Below the pieces are notes generated by a model. The model was not told the origin of the DNA. It made no database searches and saw only the letters and a program-made list of their open reading frames with translations. 64,000 nucleotides of DNA, from the NCBI GenBank assembly GCA_027946365.1, contig JAPEUQ010000007.1, positions 2,136,774 to 2,200,773 on the forward strand. The letters are read 5' to 3'. Positions 15,901 through 64,000 of the stretch are shown here, piece after piece (position 1 is the stretch's first letter; every line of letters starts with the position of its first letter). Both the position numbers and the translations under genes were made by a program. The DNA comes from Kalmusia sp. IMI 367209 (lineage: Eukaryota > Ascomycota > Dothideomycetes > Pleosporales > Didymosphaeriaceae).

Positions 15901-18900
15901 CTAGTTCTATTATATATCCTAGGAAAATGGTTATAATTATATTAAATTCGTATTTTTAGAGCTTAAGGTAGAGTTTAGTATCCCTTATTTACTAGAGGAC
16001 CTTATTTATCTATTACTTATGTTCTTCTGGTTTTTTCAAATAGATTAGGACGTCATTAAGATAGGTTATAATATATTTTTTTAGATAGTCTTTAAGGATA
16101 GTGTTTATTCACCGCTAAAAGAAGGCTAGTATATTTATAAGACTAAACGGCATTACATTCTATTTATATAGCCCTATTTTAGTATAAAAGACTATCTTTT
16201 ATTTATATTCTTTCTTTATTCTAATTTAGTGGTATGCGTTTTTTACGTCTAGCTAGGTGAAACGTTTAGCATATCTTAATTAGTCCTAAAGATCTAATAT
16301 TAAGAATAGGGGTACTTATTTTTAATAATGATATTATTTATTTTTAGTAGTCTATATAAAACTATAGTATAGAATCGTCCTTTTTATAGTAAATATAACC
16401 CTATAGGCTGCTAAAGAGGTGGATTCTTAGATATATTCTTAGATTATATGTTTAATAATTATATTTTAGATGATTTCATCCTCCTATATCATTATCTTAT
16501 AAATGGGTCCCACGTAGGTTACTTTCCTTCTATATAATTAATCTCATAGTCCCATTCTGCGTGTTCTAGTAGATAATCTAGTGGCTCCTAGAAGATTTCC
16601 TTATATTCCTAATAAACGTTAGGAATTTCTTCTTTCTAAACTCCTTATTTACTAAAAGATGATAAGGATATTCTATTTATTATTTCTACTAGTTAATTAT
16701 TAGGTTAACTTATTTTAGCTAGGGTAACCTAAGAATGACGTCCTGGAGGTTATTAATCTAGATGACATCTATAGTTATATTCCTTATTTCTAATCCTTAG
16801 GATAGGAATAATCCTTTTCTTATTTCCTTTATTATTTATTTTTAGAATGGTAACCCTTCAATCCCTAAAAGGACGCTAGGTTCCTTTTTTATTAGATTTA
16901 TATTTCTTATTTCTATATAAATTCTTTAGAGATAAAGTTTCTTATAGCTCTACTATTAATTATTACCCTTATGGGCTGTCTATAATACTCAGCCTCTAGT
17001 ATTAGATGGATTCCTCTTATTCCCTTAAAAGTTTCTTTCTCTTTATGCCAGTATTTAGTCTGGATCTTTTTTCCATATATTTTAGATATTTATTTTCTGG
17101 ATATTCGTACTATAGTCTTCCCATAACATATTCCATTAGTAGTAAGGATCCTAGTATAAGGATGAGATATCCTCCTTATTTCTTTTAGGTATTATTTATA
17201 TATTTCTTTTCTGGTGATAATATCGGTGTATAAATCCCTAAAGACCCTAGTTAAATATATTTAATATTTTATTTTTAGTACTAGGTATAATAAGCACTTG
17301 TTACTAATATATAAGACCCATAAGATTTTATAATATGCGGGATATTTTATGCTTACTTAGAGGTTATCTTTTTATTAGATTCTTCTTCTATTACTATATT
17401 ATGTTCCTAGATTAGGATCTAATATTTTACTAGAATTTAGGCGTATATATTTTATTAATTTATTTAACTTCTCTGGCTACGCTATATCATTCTAAGTTAT
17501 TAAGAGATTTATTTACTAGAATCTTATTTTACTCTACCCACCTCTAGAAATCCGTAAATTTAGTATTTTGAGGGTACTTAATTTTCTATTCCTTATATAC
17601 CTCATGGACGTTCTATTCTGGTGAGGCCTATTTAAAGAATTTCCATTTTTTAATTATTTCCTAGAATAACTATAAACCTTAGGGTTAAGCTATTTACTAT
17701 GCTAGTCTAGTAGACTAGAAATATTCTATTCCTCTAATTTAAATATTCTTTATAGGGTATTATTTCCTTTTTGAGCGATTAGGGATAAGTATAACTTATC
17801 TTCCTCTAATTTTTTTCTTTAACTTACTTATTCCTTTGGAGTTAAATTAATTATTGGGAATTTAGGCGTCTTATTCTTTTTTATTTATGGTAAGGCGTTC
17901 TTTAGTCTATTTTAATTAATATCTTATAACCTCTTTTATACTTTTATAGGTGTTATAGTTATCCTTTAAATACTTAGCCTAATAGGTTACTTTATATTCC
18001 TAATTTCTAGCTAACTAGTCCTTAAATTCCTTTTAGTTTCTTTCTCCTAGACTTTTACCGTTGGTGTTTCTTTTATCAGGGTAGTTTCTAGCTATATAGC
18101 CTTTCTTTTTATATCTAAAATATACTTTTTCTTTCCTAAGTTAGTCCTTCTTTAGATCTATTTTATTATTATTCTAAGGCTTTCTACCTTCCTTATTAGC
18201 GTTAAGAATTATTAGGTCTCCTATATTAGAGTTAAGTTTAGACCTTCCTTTCACCCCTAGCTATTTTCCTATTGGTTATCCTACTTCCAAAGATATAATT
18301 TATTATTTACCTAGATAATCTATTAGATTATAGTAGGGAATATCGTGGATTTTTCTATATAGATTATCTTATAACGGATATCCCTTTTCAGGCTCTTATA
18401 AAACCTAGTTATTAAGGCTTATTCTCCCTAGTCTAATACTAAGGTAGCCAACTATTTAAATATAGATATATAAGCTACCACTATCTTAGTTTAGTATAGC
18501 TATAATAATCTTTATTCTACTATTTATTCAGCGTCTATATTATTAAAGGTCCTATAGAGTTTCTATTTAAAGTATTTATAACTTTAAAATATTAAGTTAG
18601 TCTCTATTTTCTTCCGCTTTTTATATTTATGTGGAAATCTATTAGGAATCCATTAAACCAATTCATAACTCATCCTATAAAATAGATAGTTATATAAGCT
18701 ATCTTTACTTCTTCGGTTTCAGGAAGTCATGGTTTAAATCCAAGTATAGAGATATAAAGATAAGGAATCTTCTTAGTTTATTTTAGATTCTATTAAACTT
18801 CTTAGGTTCTACTAGCTTAGGGGCGGTTTTAAAGTCATATTTTAATCTTATCTAGTTGTTATTTTATCTCTCCTCCTCCTTCCCCTTCTTCTTCTTTTCC

Positions 18901-19125
18901 TTAAGCTACTAATAGGGCTTTAATCTATTTAACTATTTTATTATATATTTCCTTTTATTTCTTACTTTTATCTCTAAGATGATTAATTTATATTTTTATC
19001 TAAATATACTTTGTATTATTTATAGATATTACCTTAAGTAATTCTAATGGAGTAGTAGATACCATTATTAATAAGGGTGCGACCTAATATATTTATAGTA
19101 GATTCTTAAGATATAATTATTAAAG

Positions 19126-19473
19126 TATAATAGGGCGGCCATAAGGCTATCTTAAAGGGGGTAAGTGGGAAATAAGGGTGTATAGGGTTATATAGTTATA
19201 AGGGGTGAACGTTAATCAACTACTATAAGTATTAATTATTAATAGGGTTAATAGTAGTCTTCCATAAGGAACTACTTATAAGAGAACTTAATAGATTAAT
19301 AATAAGGATTACTGGTGGTTATCCATTATCTCTATATACTACTATCTAGGGTTGGCTCTGTGGGCTCTGTGGATAGAGCCTACAGAGTTGGCTCTATAGG
19401 CTCTATAGATAGAGCCTATAGAGTCGTTACATAATTATATTATATATCTATATTATACTTAGTATTACTTTCG
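19126..19473 (-). repeat. LTR of Ty3/gypsy element (5' LTR by coding orientation)
   Basis: This is the partner of 12,607-12,954. It begins TATAATAGGG where the other begins TGTAATGGGG, which fits RIP of a TG/CA end. It keeps GGCTCTGTGGGCTCTGTGG where the partner has A for G, so the two LTRs were mutated to different degrees. Confidence 0.9.
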
Positions 19474-22059
19474 ATATAATAAGAAACTTCCCTTTAGATT
19501 AGGAAAGATATAGCCAGCTTTATAATTAAGGAGGTATTATACGGAACGACTCTTACTGACGATATATTTAATTAGGGTTATAATAAGGATGCCTCTTAGG
19601 CTAAAAGTACGTTATTTATAGACTAAAATAGATCCCATAACTAACGTTCCTGAGAGGTAGTAGAAATGATACCAATTAGAAGTGGGCTTAAGTATAAGAG
19701 TCTTAGGTGATGGGAAGATAATATCCTATTTATAGTTAATAATATATTATTAAGGATTATTATTATATTAATCCTGAATAAGCACCTGAGTGGTGAATAC
19801 CTAACTTAGTAATTAGCGTCACTTATAAGCTTTAAGTATAGGTATAATTTAACGTTTATAGGGTTAATTAGAGGATAGAGTATACCTTAAATCTAAATAC
19901 TAGTCATGAGATTATTATAGATAATAGAAGTCTAAGAAGAGTAACTATATACGGTAGAAATATAGTAGTTATTAATATTTATTTTATATTAGCCTCCTTA
20001 GGTCTATTCTATAATAATACCTGCTGCAGTCATTATATAAACTTAACTTAGAATTAATATATCTTATTATAAATAAACCTAACCATATTACTAACTACTA
20101 TCTATTTATACCTAGGGGTTCTATCTGCGTAGGCAATATATAAATAAAAGTAAAAGAATATATTTAGAAGAAAGTTACTTAGCTTTAACTAAATACTTCT
20201 TATCTAGGTCTTTAGGTTTATAGTAATGGCCTAGATTGGGCCGGCCTTAATAGGTACTAGAGGAAAGCATTACTATATAGGATGATAGATAACTAGCGCT
20301 TACTTCTATGATATATTAATATATATATAGTAAATCTAGTTATAGAGCTCTAGATTTACTTAGTTACATTCCTATATAATTGAACCAAAAGACCTACTAG
20401 ATAGAAGATTTAAGAAGTAAAAGGGCTTTCTATTTACCTTATTTTTACTATTATTTCTTATAGTAATGATGAGATTACCAACCTTAATACGCTTAATAAT
20501 AGAAATAGTACTAGACCTAAGAGTAAGGCGCTTCTTCTAGGTAAAGAATAGTCTAGGCTTAAATATAGTAGGAGGCTCCTTACGCTTATAAGGAGTTGGT
20601 GGTAAATGACTAAGATATTATTAGTAAAAGTAACTATAAGAGCTTCTTAGACGTATATACTAATATAAGGCTAATAGCTACCATTGAAATTAGTACCTAG
20701 TTAACTATAATAGAAGCTGAACGGTGAAGCCCTATATTAAAAATAGAATATAGAGTCTTATTTAGGTCTACTTTATATAAGCTAACTTTCTTAAACGGGT
20801 GCGGGTTTTACGTTAGTTAATTCTTTAAGGTATAATAGAGCTAAGTATTTATAATATAATATACTTAATTTTTAATAAAATTAATTATAGAGTATAGGCG
20901 ACTATCGATTAAGCTATTATTTAGGGGAAGAAAAGATTAGTTAATGGGGTCTCAGCTTTATATAAGGCGATAGGGACGTACTAGCCTCTAGTAAAGATAA
21001 AATAATTATATTATATTATTAGAAGTATAGATTATATAAGCTTTATAAATGAGAGCCTGTCTCTATATACTTTTAGATATATAGGGTCTAGTAGTCTTAA
21101 AGTGGAATAACATAGAATAAATATAAATAGCTACTTAACTATATCTAGTAGGCTTAATGATATACTTAAGTGCCATATTAGTATATCGCTACTAAGCTAA
21201 TTTATATATATCTAAATACATACCGCCACATTAACTTAACTCTAAACGTTATATAGACTTAATCTATTTATTATACTAACTTAACTATTTCTATATTATA
21301 TTATACTTAATATAGTCTTCTATAAGCTGATCTATTCTTTATATTAACGTTAACATCTGTCCATTATATTGACTTATGGATATACCTAATCTATATATAA
21401 TCTTAAGATAAAGATTAGATATATAAATTAGAATAGCCATTTAATATTAATCTATAAAAGGATTTATTAACTAATTAATATTCCAGGATTTATTATAGAC
21501 TTAGAAAAGTATCCTTATTAATTATTTAATCTATTGTTAGACGTACGGTAGTCTCTAGTAGATTAAATATAGTATCTATTATAATGACTTATCTACTATA
21601 CGACTCAACCTATCCTTTCTATTAACCTAACATACCTAGTATGTATATAATCTTAATATAAAATTAAGATCTAAATTAGAATTACTATATTATACCTCTC
21701 TATCTAGATTATATACTAGAATATTACTAAGAACTAAAAGTTTATTCTTTTCTATGAGAATATATTATAGACTATGATAGTTCCTTACTTAGCTCTACTA
21801 TTAATGACAGCCTGTCTCTACGGATGTACTTTCCTAGACTTATTTAGGGCGTTAGAGTATAGTCCTAGTATTAAAAGACCGTATCTAAAGGATATTATAT
21901 TCTCCTTAATGGGCTACTTACTTAAAGGGCTATTCTATAGTCTAGTATACGTTAATTCTAAACCCTATATTAAGAATCTAAAGTAGTATATTATTAAATC
22001 TTTTACTTAGAGGGCTATCCTTTATAACAGTCTACTAGTAGTAGTATTTATCCATATAT
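19474..22059. other. RIP-degraded AT-rich DNA without recognisable gene
   Basis: There are stops in all frames. A 70-codon open stretch at 21,774-21,986 is hydrophobic and AT-driven, shows no family motif, and is treated as chance. Nothing else was recognised. Confidence 0.5.
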
Positions 22060-23090
22060 ACCCTAGTACTAGTATTGAAGAAGCTAAACTAGCTTATTAT
22101 ATTATTCTTCTATACTCTAGCCTCTTTTAAAGCTAATCTTCCCTAACTATACTACTAGTAGGGTGTTTGACGTCCGCCCTAGCGTATTAAGAAGAAATAA
22201 ATTAGCTTAATATTATTCTATAGCTATAAGTTAATAGTAGGGTCTAAAGAGGCGTCACCTCTATATAGTCTACTAGTAGTATATTAACGTCCGCCCTAGT
22301 ATTAAGAAGAAGCTAAACTAGATTAATATTATTCATTTATAGCTACTATTTAGAGGGCTATACTTTTCTATTATTTATCCTAGAGGGCGTTAACGTTTCC
22401 GCCCTAGCATTAAGAAGAATCTAAACTAGCTTAATATTATTCTCCTTTATTCTTTTTAGCTACTACTTAAAGGGCTATACTTCTCCCTAATTATAGTCTA
22501 CTATTGGGCGTTAACATCCGCCCTAGTATTAAAAAAGAATCTAAACTAGATTAATATTATTCCTCTTAACTATTACTTAGAGGATTATACTTCCCCTATT
22601 ATATGTTGCTGGGGCGTTAATATCTATCCTAGCATTAAGAAGAATCTGAACTAGGTTAACGTTATTCTTTTTAACTATTACTTAAGGGCTATACCTTTCT
22701 TTATAGTCTACTAGTGGTGCGTTAATATTCATCCTGGTATTAAGAAGAAGCTAAACTAGATTAACGTTATTCTCTTTAACTACTTATTTAGAGGACTATC
22801 CTTCCTAAATATCTACTACTGGGGTGTTGACATCCGCCCTAGTATTAAGAAGAAGCTAAACTAGATTAATATTATTCTTCTTAACTATCACTTAAAGGGT
22901 TATTTATCTTCCTAAATAATATACTACTAGAGCGTTAACATCCGCCCTAGTATTAAGAAGAATCTAAACTAGCTTAATATTATTCTCCTTAACTACTACT
23001 TAGAGGACTATACTTTATAATATATATTACTGGAGCGTTGACATCCACCCTAGTATTAAGAAGAGTCTAAGCCAGCTTAATATCACCTTT
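22060..23090. repeat. Tandem array of roughly 100-120-bp units
   Basis: About nine to ten units share the core CATCCGCCCTAGTATTAAG followed by AAGAATCTAAACTAG and then ATTAATATTATTC, with a variable A/T-rich tail containing CTACT..TTAGAGGGCTATAC. Cores start near 22,062, 22,170, 22,289, 22,388, 22,508, 22,615, 22,725, 22,828, 22,933 and 23,035. The units carry RIP-type differences from each other. Confidence 0.9.
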
Positions 23091-26000
23091 CCTAGAAATA
23101 TACTAAAGGGTAGTTACTTTTAATATATATAAGTTTAGGTTTACTCCTATATTAATATACTCCTATATTATTTTAGGCATATAGACTATACTATAAGTTA
23201 AAAAGGATATTCTATAAAAGCTTCTACTATTAGGTATTATATTAATAGGAGAGACTTTAAAACTATATAGTCCTCTCTTCTTAGAGAAGTTTTAGCTAGT
23301 ATACTAACTATATTACTATATAATATATTATTAGTTAGTAGATATACCGCTAGGCTAAGATACTATATATTTCTATAGATCTAAATAAGCCTACTAGGAC
23401 CTTTAGCACTCGCTCTTATCTTACTATCTAGGTCTTCTAGAAGGATGCGTATAGATAATTATAGAACTACTAGGTAGTATTTAACTAGTTTATAGCCCTC
23501 GTAGTATTAACGTAAGCGCGGACTATAGAAGCTATCATCTTTAAAAGTCTATAGGTATTCTACTTAATAACTAGGGCTTCTATAACTTTAATAGAACTAG
23601 ATTACTAACATGAGGAGGATACTTAATACTAGTAGAAATGGTGACTAGGTCTGAATAGGGACTAACTAGTATAGTATTAGCTATATATATAAATATTTTA
23701 AAAGGGTACTTACCGTTAGACTAAATCATAGCCATGAAATAGAACTAGGGTAGGTTATATAATAAAGCGGCGTTAGCTTATAAGACTAGGGAGATAGATA
23801 TATAGACTCCTTCTAGTGTTCTAGGGTTGGCTCTATTGAAATATATAAGTATTTTATATAGATACCTAGGAGCCTCTAGTATTAAGGTCATCACCTTAAG
23901 ATCTATATAAGAATATTTTCTTATAGTTATATATTAGACTACCCTCTTTAGTCTTTTTATTAAGATACGACCTTTCGTTAATACGTAGCTAACTCTCCTT
24001 TCTATCTTATATACGTTTAGTAACTTTTAGTTTAATGGCTTTCTAGAAGGCCTTTATCTAATTCTTCTAAAACCTCTATTACTTAAAGTATATCTTATAT
24101 TGGCGTTTCCTTCTGGTTACTATTAGTGATAGTTAGGATAAAGATTATAGAGGGGAGTTCCCTACGTAGTAATAAAGGTATAATTATGAGGATATTATTA
24201 CTATTACGCCTTAAAGTATCTTTTCCTCTTTAAGGTAGAGAGATCGAATCATTAGCTAATAGCTTTTCTAGGTAGTATTAGTAGGGTGGGGGGCCATGGT
24301 AATGTACGTATAGTACAAAGGAAGAAGTGGAGCGAAGACTAGTTCTAAATATAAATATTAGCTATAAATAATAGTACTAAATCTTTATATCTATCTAGCC
24401 TTTTCTAGATTAACTATTTAGGTAGGTTACTAAGCTATGATCTAACTGGACCTAATTAGTAGGTTCTAAAATCTTATCTATAAACCCTTCTAATTTATTA
24501 ATTCTATAATCTCCCTATATTAACTAGTATAGCCCTAGGGCTAATTTTATCTATATATTACTACTAGCGCCTATTAGCCTTCCGCACCTAGTAGCTAGGA
24601 TACGAATGAGGTTCTATTAAACAATTTTTAAATCTTTTAGTATAGAGATATCTACCTACTAATAAGCCTAGTAATCTAGTGCCTAAGTATTATACTAAAG
24701 TACCTATCTTTTTTATCTATATAAGTCCCCTCTTAGGCCTGGCTATAGCTTAAAAATAGATATAGTATCGTTATTATAGGCTTACTAAGTACTTAAAATC
24801 CGTAGGGCTGTATTAACTAACGTAAATACGATAAAACCTATAAAAATATTTCTTAGAATATACTATTACTCTAAAACTTCTTAGAATATTCTATCTTTAG
24901 CGTTAGTTTGCGCTAACAGGATTAGATATAGTCCTAGTAAAGCTATACCTACTCTTATCCCTTAAATTATATTAGTTATAGGGAGTCTTATAATACCTAT
25001 TACTATATTTACTAGGTTGGTTCTAACCGCCTAACTATTAAGAAGATAGAGTATATGATTAGTACTTTATCTTAATTTATTATTACTCTATATATACTAA
25101 TTGAATTTACGACCGTGGTAATCTTCCTTAGTATAATCTAGATTATTAACTAACTTCTTTTTAGCTTTTATACCACGAACCATATTATGACCTATATAAG
25201 AATCTATAGTCTATCTATATTATTATTTATAATCCCATCCGCCCTACTATCTATAGCCCTACTTACTCTATTATTTATAATTCTATCTACTACTATCTAC
25301 ACCTTTCATATTATAATAGTATTAATAAGCCCTTCTATTCTATTCCTATACTTGAGCGTATAGAATAGTAGAGGGAGGATAGTAATTAGGATGGTAGATC
25401 TAGTCTTTTAGTTAGATATTAGTAGAGGACGCTTAGACCTAAGTAAGTAACGTTATTAGCGTTATATTTTAGTATAGTATTAAACTTATTCTATATTTAT
25501 AAATACTAGTTAAGAGCTATATTAATTCCTTCTTTATAAAAGCTTCCCTACCTTACTATTTAGCCTATAGCCTCTAATGGGATAGATAGACTATTAGACC
25601 TCCACCTTTTAACCTCCTATATATATAACCTTAGTATTAAACTAAGATTTAAATTAGAACTACCATATTATATCTCTCTATATAGAGGAGTATATTAGTG
25701 CTCTAGAAGTTTATTATAGATAATTAAAGTTCCTCATTTAGTATTAGAATCTACCTAGACTATAGAAGGTTTTTATAGTAAACTAAAGACTATAATAATT
25801 TCTAATAGCTTAGTTAATCTATCTATTATAGTAACTTATCCGCGGAGTCAGGATGATTAATTTAAATAGAAAGGACTTTCTAAAAGGATAATATTTATAT
25901 TTATATCCTCTAACTACTCTAAGACTTATTATTATAGTAGCCTCTCTAATGATGTCCGGTAGCTATTTAAAGTTATTAATAAATCTACTAAAGTACTTTA

Positions 26001-26754
26001 AGATAAAGAAGTCTACCCTTTTAGCTAGAGGAGTCTATTATAGATTATAGAGGCTGTCTATAATTTATTATAACATATAGTAGGCTGCCGTAGTCTATCC
26101 TAGAATACAGTATATTATAGATAAGTATAAAAGAAAAGTCTAGTCTCTAGGGTACTCTAGTATGACTCTTTTACTTAGTATATATTTATAATATTATATA
26201 GCTCAACTACTACGCTATAGAGTTAGTATAGTTAAACTATCTCTCTCTTTTATATTTATTTATGTTTACTTTATATTATATAATTATTATAATATTAGGT
26301 TTCATATATACCGCCGCCGCTTATAGGCGCGTGCCTTCCTTTTCTATTATAAGTATAAGGCCTCCATTTACTAGTCGCGTTAGTATAAATGAGCTATTAT
26401 TTTTTATACTCTTATCTATACTCTTTTCCTTTAGTATTTATATTATATTTTTACTAGTCCTCTTTTACTTTACGCTTATATTATCCTCTTATCTATCTTT
26501 CTTTATTTTAGTATTTATAATTATTACCTTTCCCTCTCCTCTTTTATTTTAGTATTTATACTAATACCCTCTATATTACCCTACACCACGCTCTTCTAGT
26601 GGACTAATGGGTATACCCTAACGCCCTTCCTAAACGTCTCTCTAATAGTAGCTAACTAAAATAGTAAGTTAGCTATTATTATAACTATAGTTATTAAAAT
26701 AATCCTATTATACTTATTACTTTAATATATTCGTCCTCTATAAGAGGCGGGGTA
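23091..26754. other. RIP-degraded AT-rich DNA, unidentified
   Basis: No family was recognised on either strand. A small patch at about 24,280-24,345 (GGGTGGGGGGCCATGG and following) is clearly less AT-rich than its surroundings. An open stretch at 26,262-26,552 would encode almost only Ile, Leu, Phe, Ser and Tyr and looks like an effect of base composition. Confidence 0.5.
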
Positions 26755-27140
26755 GCTTCCTAAGTATAGGATTCTTAATTCTTTACTTTAAGCGCCCTAG
26801 AGGATAAGAGGGTAATAAGGTAGTTATACTAAAATATTAATCATTCGGACTTATCTAATTTTATGATAATATTAATTATAGTTACTTATAGACTTATAGT
26901 AAGTCTTAAAGCTAACAATTAATAAAGTATATATAAGACTAATAGATAAATAGGCTATATAGCTTAAGGACCCTTAATCCCTCGCTTTGAGCGCCCTAGA
27001 GGATGAGACGGGCGATAAGGTAATTATACTTAAATATTAATTATTTAAACTTATCTAGTATTATAAAAGTATCCCTAATCTATATTAATAGTTTAAACTT
27101 ATCTAATTTTATAATAATACTAACTATAGCTATTTATATA
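26755..27140. repeat. Two direct copies of a ~130-180-bp sequence
   Basis: The phrase AGCGCCCTAGAGGAT followed by GATAAGG/TAATAAGG, an ATACTNAAATATTAAT tract, CTTATCTAATTTTAT and AACTATAG occurs near 26,790-26,895 and again near 26,985-27,135. The second copy contains a further partial internal duplication around TTTAAACTTATCTA. Confidence 0.7.
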
Positions 27141-27439
27141 AAGGGTGCTGCTGCCTTACTATATAAGATTAAAGTTGGGACTATTAAGGATAAAATAAGA
27201 ATATATTTACTCTATCTATTTATATATTTATAAACTCTATAAGAGTACTAACTTCTAAGATCGCGTTTTTTAGCGTTCTAAAAGCCACGAAGCCAGGCTA
27301 TTAATAATATATAAATAACGTCGCGAGAACATAGTCTAAGCTAGTAAGGAATCTATAACCTATTAAAGAATAAGAGTAGTGTAAAACGTTAATGCTAATA
27401 AAGGATCTAACGTCCTACTAAATATAGTGAAGTACCCCT

Positions 27440-27800
27440 TCCACCAATATATAATTAATGGTAAGGAGGAGAGTTTATCTTTATAGATCTCTAGAAGGTG
27501 GGATCATTGATCATAAGATTATAGAGAGGTTACTAGTATTTAAATATATTATACTAAGTACTACTTCCTTAGACTTATGGATAGGTGGAACTTTAAAGAC
27601 GACGCCTTAAAGGACCTAACTCATCCTAGGTATAAGATTAATAGATAGGCTTAAGTTAGTTTATGAGGAGTGGAGGGACTAATAAGGTAGAAAGTATAGA
27701 CTAAGAAATCATCTAACTGGTAGCGAAACTACCTTAAGTAACTTTTAAAAAGACTAGGTGGATACTATTAGAGTTTATTAGTAATAGTCTTTAAATAAGA
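27440..27800 (+). repeat. Dispersed repeat, copy A (former coding sequence)
   Basis: The stretch is related to 33,950-34,330 in the same orientation. Shared blocks include AGATTATAGAGAGGTTA, AAGTACTAC..CTTAGACTTAT, GATAGGTGGAACTTT followed by AAGACGACGCCTTAA, and AGGCTTAAGTTAGTTTATNAGG. The plus-strand reading of copy B is the better preserved. The family was not recognised. Each copy is broken by stops. Confidence 0.8.
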
Positions 27801-29875
27801 TAATAAGAAGTATATAGACTCTTCTATAATAAAAGATAACTAGGCTAATAACCTTAAAAATAGTTAAGATGAAAATTACCCTTTCACTCCTTCCCCCTTC
27901 CCTAGTTAATACTGGCGGAAGGCCTTATTAATTTCTTTCTTTAGAAAGACTTCTACTAAGCTATAGGGTAAGGTAGAGGGCAACATAGAGGGTAGAGTAA
28001 AGGATAGAATAAAGGATAAGGATAAGGTAGAGAGTAGAAGTATAGTAAGAATAAATAAAGCTTAAGTCCCCTTTAATTAGGCCTTTTAGCTAACGTGCGC
28101 CGGACTATATATAACGGCTAGATAGAGACTTACGTATAGATATAATAGGATAGAGAGGTCTACTATAGATTAGGGATGTTTATAGTAGCCTACCTAAGTC
28201 TACCCTAGACTATAGAGGTTTACTATAGTCTTAGTAGGTCTAACTGGCCTAATCTCAATTCAGTATCCACTCTCCTTATATAATAACTAGTACTAGCCCT
28301 CCTAATAAGAGGGGCTAGGGTTGGTATAGGGTTAGTATAGGGTAAGGGGCTATGGAATTTCTCCCTTATACGGTCTAATACGTCAGTTAGTATCTTTTTA
28401 GGATATTTAAGATTATTTTACTATCTTTATCTACCGTATTGGTGGAAGGTACTATATAAGTACTAAATAGAAATATAGACTTCTACTATAAAAGATATAC
28501 TACTCTACTTCTATCTTTTAGTATAGAGACGCTATTAAATCTAGCTACTCTCTATATTAATATTGAGGAATTAGTTAGAATAAAATCTACTATTTATCTT
28601 CTTATCTAGACGCCGCCTTCTATAACTCATGAGGCTTACTAATATCTAGATTCTAGGTGTTACCATTACTAGGTTGTCATAAGGCCGACTTATAATTATA
28701 AAGGCGCCTAGCTTAGGCCGTAATTATCCTCTCTAAAGAAAGACGATTGAGGAGTATTACTATAAATAGTTTAATCTATATAGCGCTAGGACTAGGTCTA
28801 GGTCTAGTACTATTATCCTTATTATTATCTATTTAAGTTTACCACGTATACTCCTACCTGTGTGGTAGTGGGTTAGCTCTAGTACTATAGTATCTATTAA
28901 GTTACCGAACGTAGTCGACGATAATATAAATATATTATCTATTAAAGATATAGAGTTACTATATATTAATATATTATATCTTAGTTAAAGCTTATATATA
29001 TATTTATTAATTATTTAGAACCATCCTTACTAACTAGGTAATAAAGGGTAGATGGCGTATGTAGACCCTTTATTATAATATTCTAGATATTTATTATAGA
29101 CTAGGAAGGATCCCGTAGCGTATGAAGTCTATAGTATACTACCTTAACTATCTATTATTATAATCTTAACTTACTCATCTACTTTATTTATATATTTTTG
29201 GCGTTAAATTAGGAACTAAATTAGAACTAGGTAAGAGACGTTAAAGCTTACCACTACTAGGAAGTTTATTACTAATTATAGAGACTTATTATAGATTATA
29301 AAGAATATATCCTATACTACTAGGGCTCTTTATAGATATAGATATATCTAGTTTACTAGGTTTAGATTATAGTAAAAGACTTAATATAAACGTTTATACT
29401 CTTTACTTAGTACTTCTATATTAATATATATCTAATTCAACGCTAACGACACCGTTTAACTTAATAGGCATCTATATATTAGGGTTAATAGATAAAGTTT
29501 CCGGCCAAAATGATATAGAGTTAAGGTATAAACTTAAAAGGATAACGTTTCTAGCCTAGGCTCAGCATCCACCTAGTAATGCCTAACATAGATAATCTCT
29601 TAATTAAAAACTTTAAATATCTTTATTATAGTTTCTAACTAAGGTAGGAAGTCCTATACTACTAAATAGGGCGTTATAGTCTCTAGTTAAAAATTAGATT
29701 TAAATGATAATATTTCCGGCGGAGACGCTATTTATAAATAATATTATAGATATATCTTTTATATAGGGTAGCGCGTGTGGATGGCTATTATAATAGATAA
29801 TAAAACGCTCTATATTCTATATATCTAAAATATATATTTAAACTATTTACTTTTATCCTTTAGTAAATAAGATCT
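27801..29875. other. RIP-degraded AT-rich DNA, unidentified
   Basis: Purine-rich stretches at about 27,960-28,060 (GGTAGAGGG, AAGGATAGAATAAAGG) stand out from the TA-rich background. No domain could be read in any frame. Confidence 0.45.
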
Positions 29876-30275
29876 ATTTTTATTATTATTATTACTACCG
29901 CCACCACCACCACCACTACCACTATTAATAATATCTCTTAAGAATCTATTTCTACTATTATTATTATTACTACTATTATCTATATCTTTCGTCTATATCC
30001 GCTTTTAGGCGGACGGTTGGCCCGGCCTATATAGTAGAAATACTATATAGGCTAGTAAAGATAATCCTAGTAAGTAGATAGTTTAGAGAGTAAAGTATAT
30101 ATAGTCTTTATATCCTTAGATCTAGATAATAGAGTAGAGGATTTAACTAACTATATATAGATATTTAAGACGTCTAGACTCCCCGCGTTAGAGCCTACCC
30201 ACTCCTAACGCTCTCTAGCTTAGAGAGACTAGTACTACTATTACTACTACTACTACTACTATTATTATTATCTCT
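29876..30275. repeat. Trinucleotide microsatellites (TTA/CCA and CTA)
   Basis: A run of TTA and CCA triplets lies at about 29,876-29,930, a TTA run at 29,955-29,980 and a CTA run at 30,231-30,270. The CCA triplets are unusual here because CpA is scarce in the rest of the block. The stretch between holds a short palindrome at about 30,034-30,060 (CCTATATAGTA..TACTATATAGG). Confidence 0.8.
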
Positions 30276-30926
30276 ACTACCCCCACCGTTCCTACTAATA
30301 AGGATATATAGATAGACGTAGATGTTACTACTAAGTTATAAGTATACTATAGATATAGATATACTAGTATACTAAGGATAAGTTATAGATTACTAAGAAA
30401 GCGTAGTCACCTATATAGATAAGTCCCCTATATTAATCTAACTAGCTGGCCCTTTAAGGAAATATTTAGAGTAGTAGGAAGCCCTAGTAAATTATATAAG
30501 CTGGCATGTTCACTTTAAGTAGAAGTAGACGAGGGTAAAGGTTCTCACTTACTATAATCTAATTAGTAGAGAGGCGTTTAGTAAGGTTAAAGATCCTCCT
30601 ACTCTTATTATAAACGCCTAGGGCGGGCGTGTCACTTATATAAGTCTAGTATCTAGGGTAATATTAGTATACATATATATAAAGTACTACTAGGGTATAA
30701 TATATTATAACCTACCTAAGCGTACTCGCACGCATATATCTTATAAGAGGTAGTATAGGGAGTTTAGGGTTATAGTAGACTAATAATACTGTAAGGTAGA
30801 GGTTATAGGATGGTAGATAGAAATAGAGGGGGTTTCTTATTAGGGAGGGCCCTATTGGCGTTTAATTATGCTAGGTACTTTTTTATTTTTCTCGTCCTTG
30901 GTTCCTCGTCTCCTCCCTTCCTTATG
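30276..30926. other. Moderately AT-rich stretch, possible decayed coding sequence
   Basis: Plus-strand frames from about 30,480 to 30,790 have relatively few stops and read like a degraded protein, but no motif was identified. The GC content is somewhat higher than in neighbouring DNA. Confidence 0.3.
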
Positions 30927-31019
30927 CTTCTTCTTCTTCTTCTTCTTCTTCTTCTTCTTCTTCTTCTTCTTCTTCTTCTTCTTCTTCTTCTCCTTTTTTT
31001 TTTTTTTTATTATTTTTTT
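30927..31019. repeat. (CTT)n microsatellite running into poly-T
   Basis: About 21 uninterrupted CTT triplets are followed by a run of T with a few A. Two long Leu- or Phe-only reading frames across it are artefacts of the repeat. A (GAA)n/poly-A in the opposite orientation could be the 3' tail of a non-LTR retroelement on the minus strand, but no coding sequence supports this. Confidence 0.9.
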
Positions 31020-32856
31020 AATTCTATATTTAGTTCCTTCTCCTTATCTTTATCTAGAGTTAGAATATAAGCTTATTAAGGATATCATATGGCTCTATTT
31101 AATGAGGAAGTCATTTAGTCTAGATAAATATATTTAGGATCTAGCTTAGAACCACCGTATTATATTTCTCTACGTAGAAGGGTATTTAGGAGTTAATAGT
31201 ACCCCAGGAGTTTACCGTAGACTAGGGAAGTCTCCTAGTCATTATAAGAGCTTACTATAGACTAGGGGAGATTATTATAGACTATGGCAGTCCCTAATAG
31301 ATTTACTTAACCTAAAGGAATATAATAGGCTATTTATCTTACCTAGTATGATAACCTAACTCACCTAGGATAGTCTTAACACAAACTCCCACCCTTAGTA
31401 AGGGTTATATAGCTTATACTTAGTAAACGCTAATCTAAGTTATATTTATAGACTTAGTATCTATACTACGCTAGAAGATTCGCCCAGAATCGTTAACCTC
31501 TATAAGGAACTAGTATATAATAGTCATTAACCCTTAGTTACCATTAATACGTTATAGACGACTCCTATATTAGGTATATAAGTTAGAAGTACTAGTCTTA
31601 TAGTTCACCCTAACCATAACCTCTAGATTCTATATATATAAAATATTATCTAGGTATTTTTCCTACTTTACTGTGATCGCACCATCCCAAATAGTATTAG
31701 CTAGTTTAAGATAAAAGATACTCTTAGCCCTCTACCACTACCCCTATTTTTAATATGAGGTAGTGATAACTTTGCTACTATAGTATCTTAAGCTTTATAT
31801 CTACTTCCTAAGCAAGTAGACCGAGAGAGGTTATAGTTATTAATAACTACTAGTTAAGCTTATATGTTTAATTAAATACATTAACTTAGAAAAGACCTAA
31901 TATATTTTACTATAAATATATAGGATCTTTCCACTCATTAGCCGACGCTTCTTTTTAATCATTAATTAAGAAGTACTACTATATATAGTCTATTTATATA
32001 GCACTAGGCCAGTTTCGGTAATACGGTCCCCAGTAAATCCTCTAATATAGTCTATAGAATATAGAACCATTACTCCTTAAAGGGAACTAAGCTACTCTAT
32101 ATTAATATATTATATCCTAGTTAAAGTGGCCGAAGCGTAAAAGGAGTAGGAGAATAAGATAATTTCTAAAGAGGAGCTAGGGTTAGATACTATAGACGTT
32201 TTAGATGAGGAGCCTAACATCCTAAATACCCTCTTAGTAGAGAGCTTAAATATCTTAAATAAGGACTAAGGATCCCATCCCTCTATATAGTATTATAATA
32301 GACTATTTATTCTACTAAAATTATATTAGATCGCCTATAACATTGACTTAACTAAGCCGTATATAATTATAGTAGTAAATTAAGATCTAAATTAGACCTA
32401 AGTAGGACGCTTTTAGATAAGCTATCCTAGTTAAATAGTTTATTATTAACTTAGAAAGACTATCATAGATTATAAGAGAGAGTTATATACTACTAATACT
32501 TTTTATAGACTACGCACGACCAGTCTATACGGTCTAATAAATAGTAGAAATACTTAGTATGTATATATATCCTAAACCGACTTACTAATTTAATATTAAT
32601 ACGTACCATCTAACTTAAAAATAATCTAAAGCCTTGGCCGGAACCGTACTTATTATCTAACCTAGAACTATAGCTAAGCGTATAGATAGTTAAGGTATTA
32701 AATAAAGTAGATAAAGTTTTTAACTAAAATATTAATACTTTATCTAGTAATATTTTATATAGGCTAGCTCTTAGTTAGAAACTTCGCCGATTTTAATTAT
32801 AATCCCTAGTAAAGATGGGAATCCTAGTATAGTTAAATAATCAGCCATATAAGTCT
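31020..32856. other. RIP-degraded AT-rich DNA, unidentified
   Basis: No motif was recognised. Repeated TATAGACTA/TAGTCTATA words occur here as in much of the block and probably derive from one ancient repeat family. Confidence 0.45.
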
Positions 32857-56610: not shown

Positions 56611-56735
56611 GACGTCTAAAATAACGACGGCCCAAAGAGGAGATTAAAGTAATACTTAGGGGTGAAACGATGCCAGTAAGGTAGGGTTAGGTTGCCCCCA
56701 GAGGCGAAAAAGTGGTGCAAGGACGACCCATAGGG
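56611..56735. other. Transition from AT-rich to GC-rich sequence
   Basis: RIP-like composition fades between about 56,620 and 56,690. There is no gene. It may be the 3' untranslated part of the retroelement. Confidence 0.5.
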
Positions 56736-57300
56736 GTAAAGACCCTGTAGAAGACTGCCCTGGGGCAAAGACTTCGGCAGACTGCCAGGAGTAAAGACTC
56801 GGCAGACTGCCCGGGGCAAAGACTTTTGGCAGACTGCCGTAGGAGTAAAGCTATGGAAGACTGCCCCCGTGGGCAAAGACTCTGGCAGACTGCCGTAGGA
56901 GTAAAGACTCTTGCACTGCCCCGGGGCAAAAGACTCTGGCAGACTGCCGTAGGAGTAAAGACTTACGGAAGACTGCTCCCGGGGCAAAGACTGGGCAGAC
57001 TGCCGTAGGGTAAAAACTGCCCCGGGCAAAGATCACAGACTGCCGTAGGAGTAAAGACTTGCGGAAGACTCACCCCGGGGCAAAGACTCTGGCAGACTGC
57101 CCTAGGGAAAAGACTTTACGAAAGACTGACCCTTCTGGGGCAAAGAGGCAGACTGCCGAGTAAAGATTTATAAGCACTAGACCTACTCCGAACTAGTTTA
57201 GTAGATAGACTCTGCGGAAGACCACCCCCGGGGCAAAGACTCTGGCAGACTGCCCCTGGGGGCAAAGACTTTGCGGAAGACTACCTCAGGGGCAAGAGGT
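56736..57300. repeat. GC-rich minisatellite with GGCAGACTGCC palindromes
   Basis: About 17 half-units of 26-32 bp alternate between two forms. One is GGCAGACTGCCGTAGGAGT followed by AAAGACT; the other is CGGAAGACTGCCCCGGGGC followed by AAAGACT. Together they make a unit of about 57 bp. GGCAGACTGCC is a perfect inverted repeat and CCCCGGGG is another, so every unit could fold back. The last units are interrupted at 57,165-57,215. Several overlapping open frames on both strands arise from the repeat and are not taken as genes. The array is not RIP-mutated although it abuts a fully mutated block. Confidence 0.95.
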
Positions 57301-57362
57301 TCAAACTAGACCCATAGATTTATAAGCACTAAACCTACTCCCGATTAGTTTAGTAGATGACA
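57165..57362. repeat. Two direct copies of a ~45-bp sequence bracketing the last minisatellite units
   Basis: GATTTATAAGCACTAGACC followed by TACTCCGAACTAGTTTAGTAGATAG at about 57,165-57,210 recurs at about 57,317-57,360 with a few transitions. Three minisatellite half-units lie between. Confidence 0.85.
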
Positions 57363-57444: not shown

Positions 57445-59298
57445 ATGAAGCGCAAAGGCACAAATGATACAAGAGTAACAAAAAGGCAACGTACAACGAT
57501 TAAGGAAGTCAGAGAGGTAGATTCCCTCTACGATCAAGCTGCGCCATACGAACTGGCAACAGCTAGATTTCCGATCGACGCGCTCAGCCCAGATTGGAGC
57601 CTCGGTATCAATCGACCTATCGATGAAGCGCATAAGCGTCGCCTCTATGAGATTTTCAAAGAGGTGGGTGTCCTTCGGCGAGATGCAAGCCATCGGTTAC
57701 AGGTTGCTTGCTCCAAGGCGCAAGTACAGCAGATGCTAGACCACCTTCACCAGGAGGGCCAGGCTCAGACTACCGTCGCTTCAGGCGAGAGCGGTAATGA
57801 GGATAGTACGAAGTGGCCATCGTTCAAAAGCTGGGATAGCGTAATTGGAGAAAAGGTAGAGCTTATCGCGGGCCATCATCGAGTGGAAGCTTTCAAAGAG
57901 TATCTCCGACATTTTCGATTGCCGGAGGAAGAGCGTTGGTGGGTATGCAGCATCTACGACAAAGGTCAGTTTCACCCCCTACTTGTGTCAGCCAAGGCAA
58001 GCTAACCCTAAGAGGTAGATACGCTTCCACCACACCTGCGGATCAAGCTCCGTGCCAATCGAGAGGATACCATACTTCCAGATAACCATGGCCAGATCTG
58101 ACCGAATTAGCAAGCCTGTGTTTCCTATACGACGGCTGGCTACACTATGGCGGAACACCAGTTGAGCCCTATAATCACGAGATGGTGCCGTACTCGATCG
58201 GACAGGCAACCTTTAACATCTCCACGTTTGAATGGATGGCAAGCTGCAGGATAGACGATGTGAGCGCAAACCCAGGCTGAAACCCCTTACCCATCCCATG
58301 CTAAGCGACACTGGCAGTATTGGTTCGCTGCCTTTGACGAGGTTATCGAGCTTACCTCGGAAATCCGCGACCGGTGGGGACTGGTGGTCCAATTGGCCGA
58401 TTGGACCGAGCTGGCCAGCTTACCGCAGACACGCAGCAGAGGTGACGTACAGGGCCTATTCTATCCTAGCCTCGAGCCCGACGCGGAGCCTCACCCGTCC
58501 AGCAGTCGCCGAAGAGATTTCTTCTCAACAGCGAGCGACGATGCATATCATGGCTTGCATGGATGGGTGTCTGCAGAGCCAGGTAGACGCTTCGTTGACA
58601 TCCAGGCGCTCCTCAAGACTAGGAAGCAGGAAGGGAAGCTCATGAGCATCTTGATGACGCACATCAGCCAGTGGTTGAACCAGGAGCCTGCCAGGGTCCT
58701 CGACCGTGAGAATAACAAGCCCGCGTTACGGAAGGACTTGGTGCCTGCGCTGCGAGAAAGGCATGGAGAAGAGGCAGAAGCTACCTCGCGGATCCTCCAG
58801 CAACGGGTCCTCGACTACGTGCGTAAGAATGGAAAGGAGTATACCAGCACAATGCTTGAGCACTATCTCCACGAATATCCAGCCAGACACGAAAACGCCT
58901 ACAGCGCACGCTTCAAGCACAAGGTGGAGGAGACGCTACTCATCGTCGCAGACTTCACGGGGCCAGCTCTCCGGCACAAGTACCTGGCCGACTTCCTTCC
59001 GGAGGAGACGTGCGCGACCAGCGCAGATCTTTCACCGACGATCGCCCAAATCGCGCGTACGCTCATCTGCCAAATCCCAGAAGTCGCCAACGACCCAGCA
59101 CTCCAGTCGAAATGCGCAGGCCAGAAGCTACTTGCGATGATGCAGCCAGTGATCCAACAGTGGATCTCTGAACAATACGCAGAAGCGCCGGGCAGTCCCA
59201 GCAAAGAGGAGCAGTCGTCAACGGCTGAGGGGATGGAGGTAACGCTCGAGACGGCTGAGGGGATGGAGGTGACGCTCGAGACGCTCCCAAAGAGCTAA
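57445..59298 (+). CDS. ParB/sulfiredoxin-like domain protein (DUF3723-like layout), spliced, frame-damaged
   Basis: The ATG at 57,445 has A at -3 and is followed by a basic, nuclear-localisation-like N-terminus (KRK..KRQR, residues 2-16). Residues about 139-170 read ELIAGHHRVEAFKEYL, then EERWW, the GxHRxxA motif of ParB-like folds followed by a double Trp. From memory fungal DUF3723 proteins share this layout (GxHR..A, then WWTVDLY). Intron 1 is 57,965-58,012 (GTCAGT, CTAAC branch, AG); intron 2 is 58,260-58,317 (GTGAGC..CAG). Exon 3 encodes YWFAAFDEV to the end, with HYLHEYPARHENAYS and IPEVANDPALQSK. Within exon 2 the frame is broken: one G is missing near 58,099 (TGA where the other copy implies TGG), about 88 nt are absent near 58,119, one G near 58,164 and two bases near 58,186. 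The gene is probably non-functional as written, unless these are sequence errors. DNA binding or cutting is inference. Confidence 0.75.
59221..59280 (+). repeat. 30-bp in-frame tandem duplication near the 3' end of the ParB-like gene
   Basis: ACGGCTGAGGGGATGGAGGT followed by AACGCTCGAG occurs twice with one difference and encodes TAEGMEVTLE twice. The RIP copy has both units as well. Confidence 0.95.
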
Positions 59299-59628
59299 GC
59301 ACACCCACCCTAACCCAGGGCAAGGAGTATCCACGGCGCATCGGCAGCGTAGGTCTCCATCTCCCGGAGCGCAGGCGGCATCACATAGGCACGGATCTGC
59401 TAGATGGGGAGCGCCAGTCCCACAAACCACCTAGACTATATATCATCTCCCAGACTTTGCATGTTCAGCGCCAGTGCGGCTGGCGATTCAGCGTTAATGA
59501 ATGCATGACGTCATGTTTTTTGCTTCAAGTTCCTTTCCTTGCAGCTTTGAGGGCAAGGGGCGAATCGGTGCCTGCTCTGCCGCCTTTCACCCTGAAAGTA
59601 GCCCTCCCTCCATACTATTCTATCAACG
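59299..59628. other. Intergenic region between the two module genes
   Basis: This is about 330 nt in the GC-rich copy but about 700 nt in the RIP copy. The two copies match next to both genes (for example CACCTAGACTATATATCATC at 59,429-59,448) and differ in the middle. It presumably holds the terminator of the first gene and the promoter of the second. No clear TATA box was seen. Confidence 0.5.
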
Positions 59629-62600
59629 ATGGACCCGTCGTTAGACGAGGTAATTAGGTCCGCCTGGCGATGTGGACCAGTGGCTAAACTTTTCACCTAC
59701 CATCCCTACAACGCCTACACCTGCACCTACGACGCCTACACCTGCACCTACAACACCTACACCTGGACCTGCACCTACAACACCTACACCTGCACCTGCA
59801 CCTGCAACACTTGCACCTACAACACCTACACCTGGACCTGGACCTGCAACACTTGCACCTACAACACCTACACCTGACCTGCAACACTTGCACCTACAGC
59901 AATGGCAGCTTGTCCGAGATTTCTGAAGATGACGCCGAACCCTGGGACGACGTCACGCCTTACGAATTAAGGCAGGATGATGGCGAAGGTAGTTTTGGCG
60001 ACGAAGAACAGGTGGTCGTAGCATCTGAGCAATATGTATGGAAGATCGACCATACAAAGGGGGATCACAAGTTCAAGGGTAAGCAACGGGTGCGTAGGGA
60101 GAACCCGTGCAGCCACTGACTACGTAGCAGTGCAAGACTTCATCGCAGCGACGGAGCGCACCTCTTTCAATGGTAGCCACGCCACCGACATGCTGCAAAG
60201 GCGATACACGCTCGACTATGGAAGCCGAAAAGCCGGCTCACGAGCTGCAGCACTGGAGGACGACTACATACCCTCCTTCTTCCTCGACCTTCTCATAATC
60301 GTCGGCCAGCCGCTAAGGCCAATCACGCGACAGTCGAGCCGGTTCTTTGATAACATAACGATGAGCTTCAAGAACTGGAGGGCCCCGTACAGCCACAAGC
60401 ACATCCATGGACTGTCGTTCGACCTGGAGCACCGGACGTTCCGGCTGGCAACCGCCGCCACAAGGGAGGCCTGGTACATCGTCATGCACCCAATCGCTAA
60501 CCCGCCCGAGGGCTCTGACGAGAGGCGAGCTTCGAACGTCGCGAGAAGGCATCCTGGCACAGCGCCCTAGAAGACCACCACGCGGAATTCTGGCCTCGTA
60601 CATCAAGCAGATCTTCCTCATCGGCGAACTGCTGGGCGAGGGTGTGGAGCCGTCGTGGAGGCTAGGCGATCCGCGCACGCAGAAGATGACCGTCAACAAG
60701 TGGATGCTGTTCCAAGAGAAATTCACAGCAGAGTGGCCCGCATACGTCAGACGGAGCACGCGAGACGCCTTCTGGTTGGAAAACGAGCCGGCGTTCCACG
60801 CGTACGACTACGGCGCGAACATCGAGATCGAGGTAACAGAGCAGCTACGATCGGTGCCAAAGGAGACCCGACTTCGATCCAGGGAAGACGAATCCGACTC
60901 ATCAGACGAAGAGACCGGGAGACCGTAGGGCAGGAAGATGTCGTTGCGTCCGACGAGCTGGCTGGGAGCGAAGTGCCGGAGGCCAGCGACCCTCACGTTA
61001 GCTACGACTACCAAAGCCTCTTCACCGGCGGACTCGACCAGCTGAGAACGGAGTTGGAACAAAAGTACATCCTCGACAACATCGAGACCGTCTCCTATGC
61101 GCTAGCGGTCGATATCAATTGCCTGGATGGACGGTCCCCAGACCCACGTGGCGATAGACCGGCACGCTGTCTCCTGGCCGATCGTAACAAGGTTCTCAGG
61201 GAATATCGAGGGCGCCGAGACTTCACCTTCTACCCGCTTGCGTTCCATCCGGCCTACGGCACCGCCGTCGGCGCAGCCGCCAGCGTTCCTCACAGACAAC
61301 CTCCTCGCAGTCATGCAGGAAACATGAGCTACCAGCACAACGGAGCAAACGTGCTGAAGTACGGATACTTTCAGGCGTACTCCAACATCAAAAGGAGCAT
61401 CCGACACGGGCCCGACGACCTGCTCGCTACCAAGGGCGTCGCAACCGCGGCGCTGGCGCTCCCCGATCGCGATGGAGCACTGCCTGCGTGGGTGGCGACG
61501 AAGCGGAATCGCCTCCTGCAGCACCTGAGAGGGCAGCTGACGCCCAACGACCCTGAAGCGTCCAGGCCCTTCGCTCGCGAGCGGCAGCGCATCAGGCAGG
61601 CCATCCAAGAGGAAGAGTATGCCTTCAGGATGGAGCAGGTGCTCTCCGTGCAGGCATCGAGGCTGAACGAGGACGGGCGGAGCTTCTCCGCCATCCTCAC
61701 CCCCATCTTTCAGCTGATGCGTTTCTTCCTCGAAGAGTCGCAATGCTATACACATCTCTTCCGCTCCTTCACGCCATCCGTGTTTCCTGGCGTTCTGGCG
61801 TCCTTTGCGAACCTCTTCGCGCAGGCGATCGACAGCCTCCACGCTCGATTCGAGACCACCGGCTCCAAGGGACTATGCGTGGCGTTGGCAGAGGGCGTGT
61901 CTGCCCTCGATCGCCTAGGCAGCTACTGCTTCACCGGCTTCCCAAGGTCCCTGATGGGCTCGGTGCTCGCCCGCTCGGGACGATCGACAGCATCGAACAG
62001 GGCGGATGGCGTTCATCGACCCTGGGTGCTCAGCCTGCAAGGTGCCGGCCACCTCAGCCTCACGCAGTGGCCTCGATGCGGGAACGGACGGCCTACCCTG
62101 ATGCACATAGCATCCATCGCCTTCCATTACTCGCCGGAGGTCGCAGCCAGCTGCCACAGCGAGGCGTGGTTCAGGGAGCTGGGCGGACTGCGGGTGCAAG
62201 GGCCGAGCGGTGCTGGGAGGTTCATCGAAGAGGTGCTGCAGGAACTCTGGAAGCCTCAGATGATCACCTTCATCACCAGCCGCCTCCGTCGAGCGTTGAA
62301 CGAGGGCAGTCGAGGCCGAGGAGGGGGCGGCGATGGTCCGGAGATGCTACGGCTGCTAGAAGAGCGACGGGAGCAGGTGAGGCAATGGGCACAGAGCGAG
62401 ACCCTTCTCGTGGAGTTCGACTCCCAAGCGCCGTTCCGGCCGTCGTGAAGAAGCCAGCTAACCATCATGGGTTGCAGGGAGTACCAGTCGATCGTTCCCC
62501 ACTGCTCGGTACGGAGGACGGCCACGCCTCCATCGTATCCCCGACCGCGCGACGCGACTTCGCGCAGGACCTGTACGACAGCTGCATGCAACGCGACCAG

Positions 62601-63261
62601 CAGCAGGAGCGGCGAGGCCTGGCAGCCTCAAGCGCTTGGCCATCGAGGCGGAACACCGGGCGAAGCGACCATCGCTACGGCAGAGCGTGATCGACTTCGG
62701 CTGCGAGTTACCCTTCCGCGTCATACCGCCGCTGATAGAGGATGGCTTTCGACGGCACGAGAAGCTCTTCGCGACAGGCAACCGCGCCGTGCCAGAGCAC
62801 TACCAGACAGCTCATCAGTGTCTCGCTGAGTGTCTGGGCGATCCGCTTTGCGATCTGATGCTCATGATGGTGTTGACGCTGGCCTCCTCGTCCGTAACGC
62901 CTACCGTAGCACCCAAAGCGCGGGCGTTCAGCGCGGGCCTAAGAAGGAGACCAACTCGTTCGCAGCAAGCCTGGTGACCAGGATGCTCTGGTTCCTGCGA
63001 CCCGGATCCTTTCCTTGGGACGACGGTGATACGGATAACGCGGTACTGCGGGTGTCGGAGATGACGAAGAAGATTGGTAAGTTGGCAAGAGGCAAGACAC
63101 GGACAGAGCTAACGGCCGACGCCGCAGAACACAAGGGAGTCAGCAATCGATTGCTACGAGCTAGGCTGATAGAGGTCTTCGAAACAATCGAGACAGTCCG
63201 CGCAATAGCGAGGTCAGGCTTCAGGATCAAGGAGTCCTGCTCGGTCGACGAAAGGGCTTGA
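59629..63261 (+). CDS. Very large unrecognised protein of the module, interrupted by frameshifts
   Basis: ATG 59,629 has A at -3 and G at +4. After a repeat (59,693-59,890) the coding frame reads SLSEISEDDAEPWDDVTPYE up to 60,078. An intron at 60,079-60,130 (GTAAGC, CTGAC branch, CAG) leads into VQDFIAATERTSFNG. Coding then continues to 63,261. A second intron with branch GCTAAC and acceptor TTGCAG near 62,493 bypasses a TGA at 62,446-62,448; its donor is unclear. Readable stretches include FFLDLLIIVGQPL, IKQIFLIGELLGE, an acidic EDESDSSDEE, FSAILTPIFQLMRFFLEES, HIASIAFHYSPEVAAS, VIDFGCELPFRVIPPLIED and LWFLRPGSFPWDDGDTD. The frame shifts near 60,590, 60,914, 61,255/61,320, 61,977, 62,010-62,025, about 62,610 and 62,943. 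At nearly all of these the RIP copy has one base more and stays in frame. About 210 nt are also missing near 62,605. Expected length is over 1,100 residues. I recognise no family; a transposase-like or other mobile-element role would be speculation. Confidence 0.7.
59693..59890 (+). repeat. CACCTACAACACCTACACCTG-type minisatellite inside the large gene
   Basis: CACCTRCAACACYTRCACCT units of 6-bp periodicity are combined into units of about 18-48 bp. The three plus frames give Thr-Pro-Ala, Tyr-Asn-Thr/Cys-Thr or His-Leu-Gln repeats. The frame leading into the downstream protein is the His-Leu one, while the frame from ATG 59,629 is the Tyr-Thr one. A unit with one base missing near 59,874-59,880 (CACCTGACCTGC) switches frame, so the encoded repeat is uncertain. 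Confidence 0.9.
60079..60130 (+). other. Intron in the large gene
   Basis: The 52-nt segment begins GTAAGC, contains CACTGAC as branch site about 14 nt before the end, and ends AGCAG. Splicing joins HKFK to VQDFIAA through a split Val codon and avoids a TGA at 60,117-60,119. Confidence 0.8.
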
Positions 63262-64000
63262 TGTCCCTTCGATCGGATGCGGCAGGGTTTATAGGTTTAT
63301 CTTCCAGAGCACTGATCCTATCTGGGTTGAGCGCTGCACTTCCATCATAGTAGACTCGTAGATCAACTTCGCTTCCATGAACGATCATCAAGGATAGACC
63401 ATCGTAGATACCGTAGTTACAATAGACCATGCTCTTGAATACGTTCGCCCACGGACTCGTCTAGCACCTATAGCAGGACGTGAACCCCGTCATGGAAACG
63501 AGTAGGATCAGTGCCTGATCATATGTAACGCGTGGATGCTTTGCAGTCCTTCGTGATGCCGAAGAGACATGGTATTAGGATATATGATAGCACCAAAGCG
63601 TTCGTCGCGCCAAGCAAGCGATAGATCGATACCTGCACGTTTATATAACCATTCTGTCGTGTACACACAACGTTGCATGGTACAGTGGTGGTAGTGTAGG
63701 ATTTTTTAGTTCTTTCGTAGAGAGCATACGCATGAGGTGCTAGACTAGCTGCGTTCCCGTCAGGAACGGAGCTATAGCGATCCTGGCACGCCGCGAATGG
63801 AACTGCGAAACCGTCTGGGGCGGCCACTCTCGCAGCACCATCGGCACCCACTATAGCAGGAGGTCATCCCCTTCGTCCTTTCCGGAATAAATACCCGCCC
63901 TCAAACCGTAGCTTTTGAGACTACCATTCAAAGTACGCTATGCGACAATTCGAGATCATGAAACACCTACCTGGGACCTTTTCCCATCCTTCTCATGCTG
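63262..64000. other. 3' flank of the module, still part of the duplicated segment
   Basis: No gene was recognised; a minus-strand open frame at 63,519-63,851 has no counterpart supported by the other copy. The sequence matches the RIP copy from about 6736 to 7970 except for roughly 320 nt absent near 63,720-63,740. The match continues to the last base, so the module or its flank extends beyond the window. Confidence 0.6.

Follow-up and report, generated by a model that had tools for sequence, protein, structure and literature searches.

Organization of the locus

The window analyzed here is a stretch of 64,000 bp from the ascomycete Kalmusia sp. IMI 367209 (contig JAPEUQ010000007.1, referred to below as C28, positions 2,136,774 to 2,200,773). 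It represents the final 64 kb of this contig, in a genome of 42.8 Mb assembled into 30 contigs. The window contains two copies of a repeated unit, each with a pair of genes encoding a ParB-like protein (gene 1) and a giant protein of no known family (gene 2). An earlier sequence-only reading had placed these genes twice in the window, in the same order and on the same strand, and we found exactly this arrangement: the copy close to the contig end (unit 2) is GC-rich, and the other (unit 1) is degraded by repeat-induced point mutation (RIP). The span initially assigned to the module (57445..63261) is too narrow. Unit 2 begins at 56652 and the contig stops at 64000; in contigs C6 and C13 the repeat continues for at least 30 kb, in keeping with the earlier suggestion that the window edge truncates a larger element. 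The features of both units are presented in Table 1.

Table 1. Features of the two repeat units (positions in the window)
Feature	Position	Strand	Remarks
Proximal terminus of unit 2	56652..56749	+	ATAC / TTAGGGGTGAAACG...; includes TAGGGTTAGG and the telomere-like TTAGGG; meets a foreign flank at an exact junction
Minisatellite	56750..57358	+	units of ~29/58 bp; directly upstream of gene 1
Gene 1	57445..59298	+	ParB-N-like domain and helical C-terminal part; two introns, at ~57965 and ~58260, borders read from the sequence
Gene 2	59629..63350	+	giant protein without known family; first intron ~60079-60130, start and intron read from the sequence; deletion and frame breaks
Gene 1 and gene 2 of unit 1	590..6600 (approx.)	+	RIP-degraded
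Body of unit 1	594..31453	+	RIP-degraded; colinear with the unmutated C6 block; interrupted by an LTR-type element
Gene 3 of unit 1	8720..10330 (approx.)	-	RIP-degraded; 541-aa frame in C6; placed by interpolation
Ankyrin-repeat equivalent of unit 1	22077..24474	-	RIP-degraded; corresponds to frames of the unmutated block

Predicted products of gene 1 and gene 2

Comparison of predicted folds revealed the ParB-N fold of the ParB/Srx superfamily in the N-terminal part of the gene 1 product, which supports its earlier designation as a ParB-like protein. The alignment with its relative P0121 begins at 57445. Fold similarity to bacterial ParB, Noc and KorB extends over approximately 93 residues, and we take the GxHR and NR motifs to be common to gene 1 and these proteins. 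The GxHR motif and the double Trp noted previously are present in gene 1 and in all seven of the relatives displayed. The ParB-type fold is familiar chiefly from the partition systems of bacteria and plasmids; gene 1 differs in its fungal origin and its C-terminal part, and its nucleotide binding and site loading are putative.

The proposed likeness to DUF3723 (PF12520; Pfam cut-off, 22 bits) stands as a distant kinship only. At E<=0.05 the profile was matched by 16 of 75 relatives. Ten relatives were scanned singly: seven match over 30-91 of the 508 profile positions and two reach the cut-off. The N-terminal exon of the window copy (scored as an exon, not as the spliced protein) and the full-length relative P0121 fall below it, with 14.9 and 19.2 bits, respectively.

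No match to the gene 2 product was obtained in the Pfam, PDB-sequence and fold tests run, which agrees with its description as a giant protein without a family; the size suggested for it (more than 1,100 residues) agrees with long relatives such as P0006 (1191 aa). Its relatives, of up to approximately 1,200-1,300 residues, are spread over several fungal genera. Among named relatives, those nearest to the two proteins originate from Pyrenochaeta, which makes a Pleosporales host likely; introns, AT-rich stretches and RIP indicate a filamentous fungus. The window copy, aligned with P0006 from 59913 to 63349, is split over several frames, and that of C6 (locus L011) contains an open frame of 1014 aa. 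Compared with P0006, the reading frame of each of the four unmutated copies (see below) is broken at one or more positions, which vary from copy to copy and may reflect either sequencing error or real decay. Close to the start of gene 2 (59705-59895) lies a Pro/Thr-rich repeat of 21 bp, and its length in the window copy is not that in C6.

An exact terminus facing the contig ends

Upstream of the minisatellite, the unit starts with ATACTTAGGGGTGAAAC. The sequence ATACTTAG is the invariant unit start in all 17 junctions read, located at 13 contig ends; position -5 and those beyond it vary among junctions, and two C1 copies differ in the bases directly following ATACTTAG. The 30 bases preceding the terminus are identical in C2 and C14, whose final 169 bp of flank are 98% alike, and at most 50% alike (median 27%) in all other pairs. 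Some flanks contain recurring dispersed repeats: the C27 flank that ends at the terminus continues in C13, and the C24 flank continues in C30. Directly proximal to the terminus of unit 2 lies a dispersed, RIP-mutated repeat (55200-56640), present at 16 genome places including this one, on both strands.

A 34-base pattern identified 25 termini genome-wide (control, none), none of them farther than 101.3 kb from a contig end. In all placement and direction results, contig ends stand in for telomeres; telomere repeat arrays are absent from the assembly. All 24 informative termini face the nearest contig end, with gene 1 and gene 2 forming the proximal part of the repeat; the remaining terminus, on the 26-kb contig C24, is uninformative. 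The unit thus occupies many ends in a single orientation, as do telomere-linked subtelomeric repeats. More than one terminus, always in the same direction, is present at several ends: four in C7, three in C13 and C28, and two in C1, C6 and C27. It is very improbable that the contig ends are an artefact caused by an internal repeat in which contigs break. Repeats do break assemblies, and the lack of telomere arrays would fit, but contig breakage at an internal repeat would occur on either side of it and so yield both orientations, whereas only one is seen, and gene 1 DNA is present at both ends of C25 (3.9 Mb) and C26 (2.7 Mb).

For nine of the 25 termini (three in C7, two in C1, and one each in C6, C13, C27 and C28), the matches listed include no separate gene 1 match, as expected of truncated copies; the two in C1 are at the contig edge. 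At four loci (C26 start, C3, C25 start and C26 end) no terminus was seen within the sequence first examined; the 34-base pattern placed it further out in C3 and at the C26 start. The minisatellite word GCAAAGACTCTGGCAGACTGCC (up to 3 mismatches) gave 90 matches (control, none), all of them at these contig-end loci.

Copies of the unit and RIP

Among the best candidates listed by the genome-wide search, 18 places match gene 1 DNA, and 14 entries (two of them in C30) match gene 2 DNA; repetition of the pair is therefore not due to chance, and the copies act as a unit, as had been supposed. Four copies are GC-rich and unmutated: those of the C28 end (the window), C30, C13 (at 57 kb) and C6. Their identity amounts to 99% in the core of gene 1 and to 98-99% in the gene 2 stretch, with lower values in the minisatellite. 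The window and C30 copies contain deletions against C6; judged by alignment gaps, the former lacks approximately 88 bp in gene 1, 366 bp of the intergenic region and 219 bp in gene 2.

At the other 14 loci, C>T and G>A changes account for 86.7 to 98.7% of the differences from C6, and 67-92% of CpA sites are mutated (alignments of <250 columns were dropped, the unmutated C13 copy was left out, and another C25 piece could not be aligned). RIP-type changes make up 2245 of 2274 differences in unit 1, and show no bias in the C30 and window copies (36 of 78 and 22 of 73, respectively). When they are removed, the divergence amounts to 0.37% for unit 1 and 3.9% for the short C26-end piece. Since non-RIP differences are few and transitions dominate, the copies derive from nearly one sequence and most have passed through RIP, which implies that copying between ends took place from nearly one sequence.

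Nested joins

Joins of this kind occur in C7, C1 and C13, where an older copy is cut short and a new terminus follows at once. The break points, in element positions, are ~759 in C7 (within the minisatellite, approximate), ~2050 in C1 and 1038 in C13 (both in gene 1). An insertion would have placed the remainder of the older copy further on, and addition to a broken end would not. The distal sequence covered for C13 (9,451 bases) and C7 (11,014 bases) contains a single copy of element positions 2000-3200 and no second one, which favours addition to a broken end. Given that the sequence beyond is only partly covered, this evidence is strong but not final.

Such structures also bear on passive subtelomeric segmental duplication, in which ectopic recombination or break-induced replication would copy chromosome tips, with the genes as passengers and the terminus as an old boundary. 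Long colinearity toward the contig ends and the flank common to C2 and C14 are consistent with this explanation, and tip sharing has been described in other fungi (PMC5576322, PMC4522978). However, homologous tip exchange would bring flanks along or break variably, and we observed the same start base in 17 of 17 junctions, nearly all flanks unlike, and joins into the middle of older copies. We regard passive duplication as somewhat unlikely.

Extent and other contents of the unit

The C6 and C13 copies are colinear and GC-rich for approximately 30 kb from the terminus, with ~3 kb extra in C6; the distance from terminus to contig end is 57.9 kb and 60.2 kb, respectively. The terminus of unit 1 lies outside the window, probably at C28:2129817, where its distance from gene 1 would exceed the usual one by approximately 6 kb. 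The unmutated block also contains (i) gene 3, (ii) ankyrin-repeat frames and (iii) a gag-like fragment, a tentative assignment from our own reading of a Zn-knuckle, without Pfam support.

Gene 3 spans L011 9372 to L029 1093; the precomputed accession PF28402 is attached to all 18 of its relatives, and a Pfam scan did not report it for two relatives or the query. The ankyrin-repeat frames (L029 5858-9460; C6 1235258-1238860) are unmutated, lie on the minus strand and consist of ~105-bp units; between C6 and C13, these arrays can be aligned in many registers. The long terminal repeat (LTR)-type element inside unit 1 (~6.8 kb, 12609-19427) has 300-bp direct repeats 92% alike and a degraded reverse transcriptase match (15941-16285, minus strand). 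A 33-bp tandem array (36950-37468) overlaps an open frame of 153 aa, around which the sequence is rich in stops.

The RVT_1 profile gave 53 matches from 55 candidates, none of them in the unmutated C6 and C13 blocks, although an intron-split or distant reverse transcriptase could be missed. No DEAD helicase match was found in C6 1219331-1277204 or C13 1-60207 among the 37 of 68 candidates scored (40 rows).

A large DNA transposon preferring subtelomeres, Starship-like or other, whose recombinase and distal end went unrecognised, would account for the exact terminus, the first gene reading inward from it, the size of at least 30 kb and the flank sequences that continue uninterrupted elsewhere, and the distant kinship with DUF3723 would also fit it. 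Like Starships, the unit is a large fungal element, and gene 1 shares a ParB-like stretch with DUF3723. It differs in its location near contig ends only and its strict one-way orientation, and the interrupted stretch has no second copy in the distal sequence examined. The search for a Starship captain (DUF3435) returned no matches and is uninformative, its control being equally silent. A transposon seems improbable. The Starship setting of the sequence-only reading has no positive evidence; its ParB-like protein, family-less giant protein, unit-like recurrence and larger element stand.

Proposed mode of spread

Placement near contig ends in a single direction, an exact terminus against differing flanks, fresh termini on cut-off older copies and RIP of most copies are best explained, with moderate confidence, by a telomere-linked repeat element with new gene content that spreads by addition to chromosome ends. 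Its layout would comprise a fixed proximal terminus, the minisatellite, the ParB-like gene, the giant conserved gene and at least 20 kb more toward the chromosome end. We infer that breakage or erosion of a chromosome end may be followed by addition of another chromosome's tip, beginning precisely at the terminus, and that the element would thereby hitch-hike on end repair and stack head to tail. The ParB-like protein may load on the minisatellite beside its own gene, as ParB does on parS, and may, together with the giant protein, mark or handle the terminus; this would explain the exact start and would make the element's own genes the drivers of its spread. A bolder proposal is that of a categorically new end-capturing unit, in which a parS-like minisatellite, a ParB-type loader and a giant protein of new fold would join the unit by an exact terminus to broken chromosome ends, with neither a reverse transcriptase nor a RecQ helicase involved; we consider this unlikely. 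The exact terminus at unlike flanks makes end addition directly testable.

Comparison with known telomere-linked elements

Drosophila HeT-A and rotifer terminons are comparable chromosome-end elements of one orientation, with tandem arrays and truncated copies. The yeast Y' elements are, like the unit described here, subtelomeric and spread between chromosome ends. They differ in carrying a RecQ helicase (PMC4522978).

Telomere-attached Penelope-like and non-LTR elements, including MoTeR/FoTeR (PMC4522978, PMC8381367, PMC12857005), share with the unit a single orientation, tandem arrays, truncated copies and telomere-like bases at the terminus. Its placement and direction match the arrays bounded by interstitial telomeres in Magnaporthe (PMC8381367), and its truncation and stacking resemble those of the telomere-attached retroelements (PMC4522978, PMC12857005). 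In contrast to the latter, the unmutated blocks have no RVT_1 match, and gene 1 and gene 2 are directed outward, away from the proximal end.

The telomere-linked helicase (TLH) repeat DHX_G198 of Colletotrichum higginsianum is present at many chromosome ends in one orientation to the telomere, and divides unique sequence from the tip (PMC5576322). In these respects the unit resembles TLH repeats; these carry RecQ-like helicase domains, whereas the unit encodes a ParB-like and an unrelated giant protein, with no DEAD match among the candidates scored in the two unmutated blocks. What differs from the known telomere-linked systems is the gene content and the exact terminus against unlike flanks. 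The niche of fungal telomere-linked helicase repeats and telomeric retroelements is occupied here by other proteins, one of a ParB-type fold and one from a widespread family of ~1,200 residues without a fold match in the searches run.
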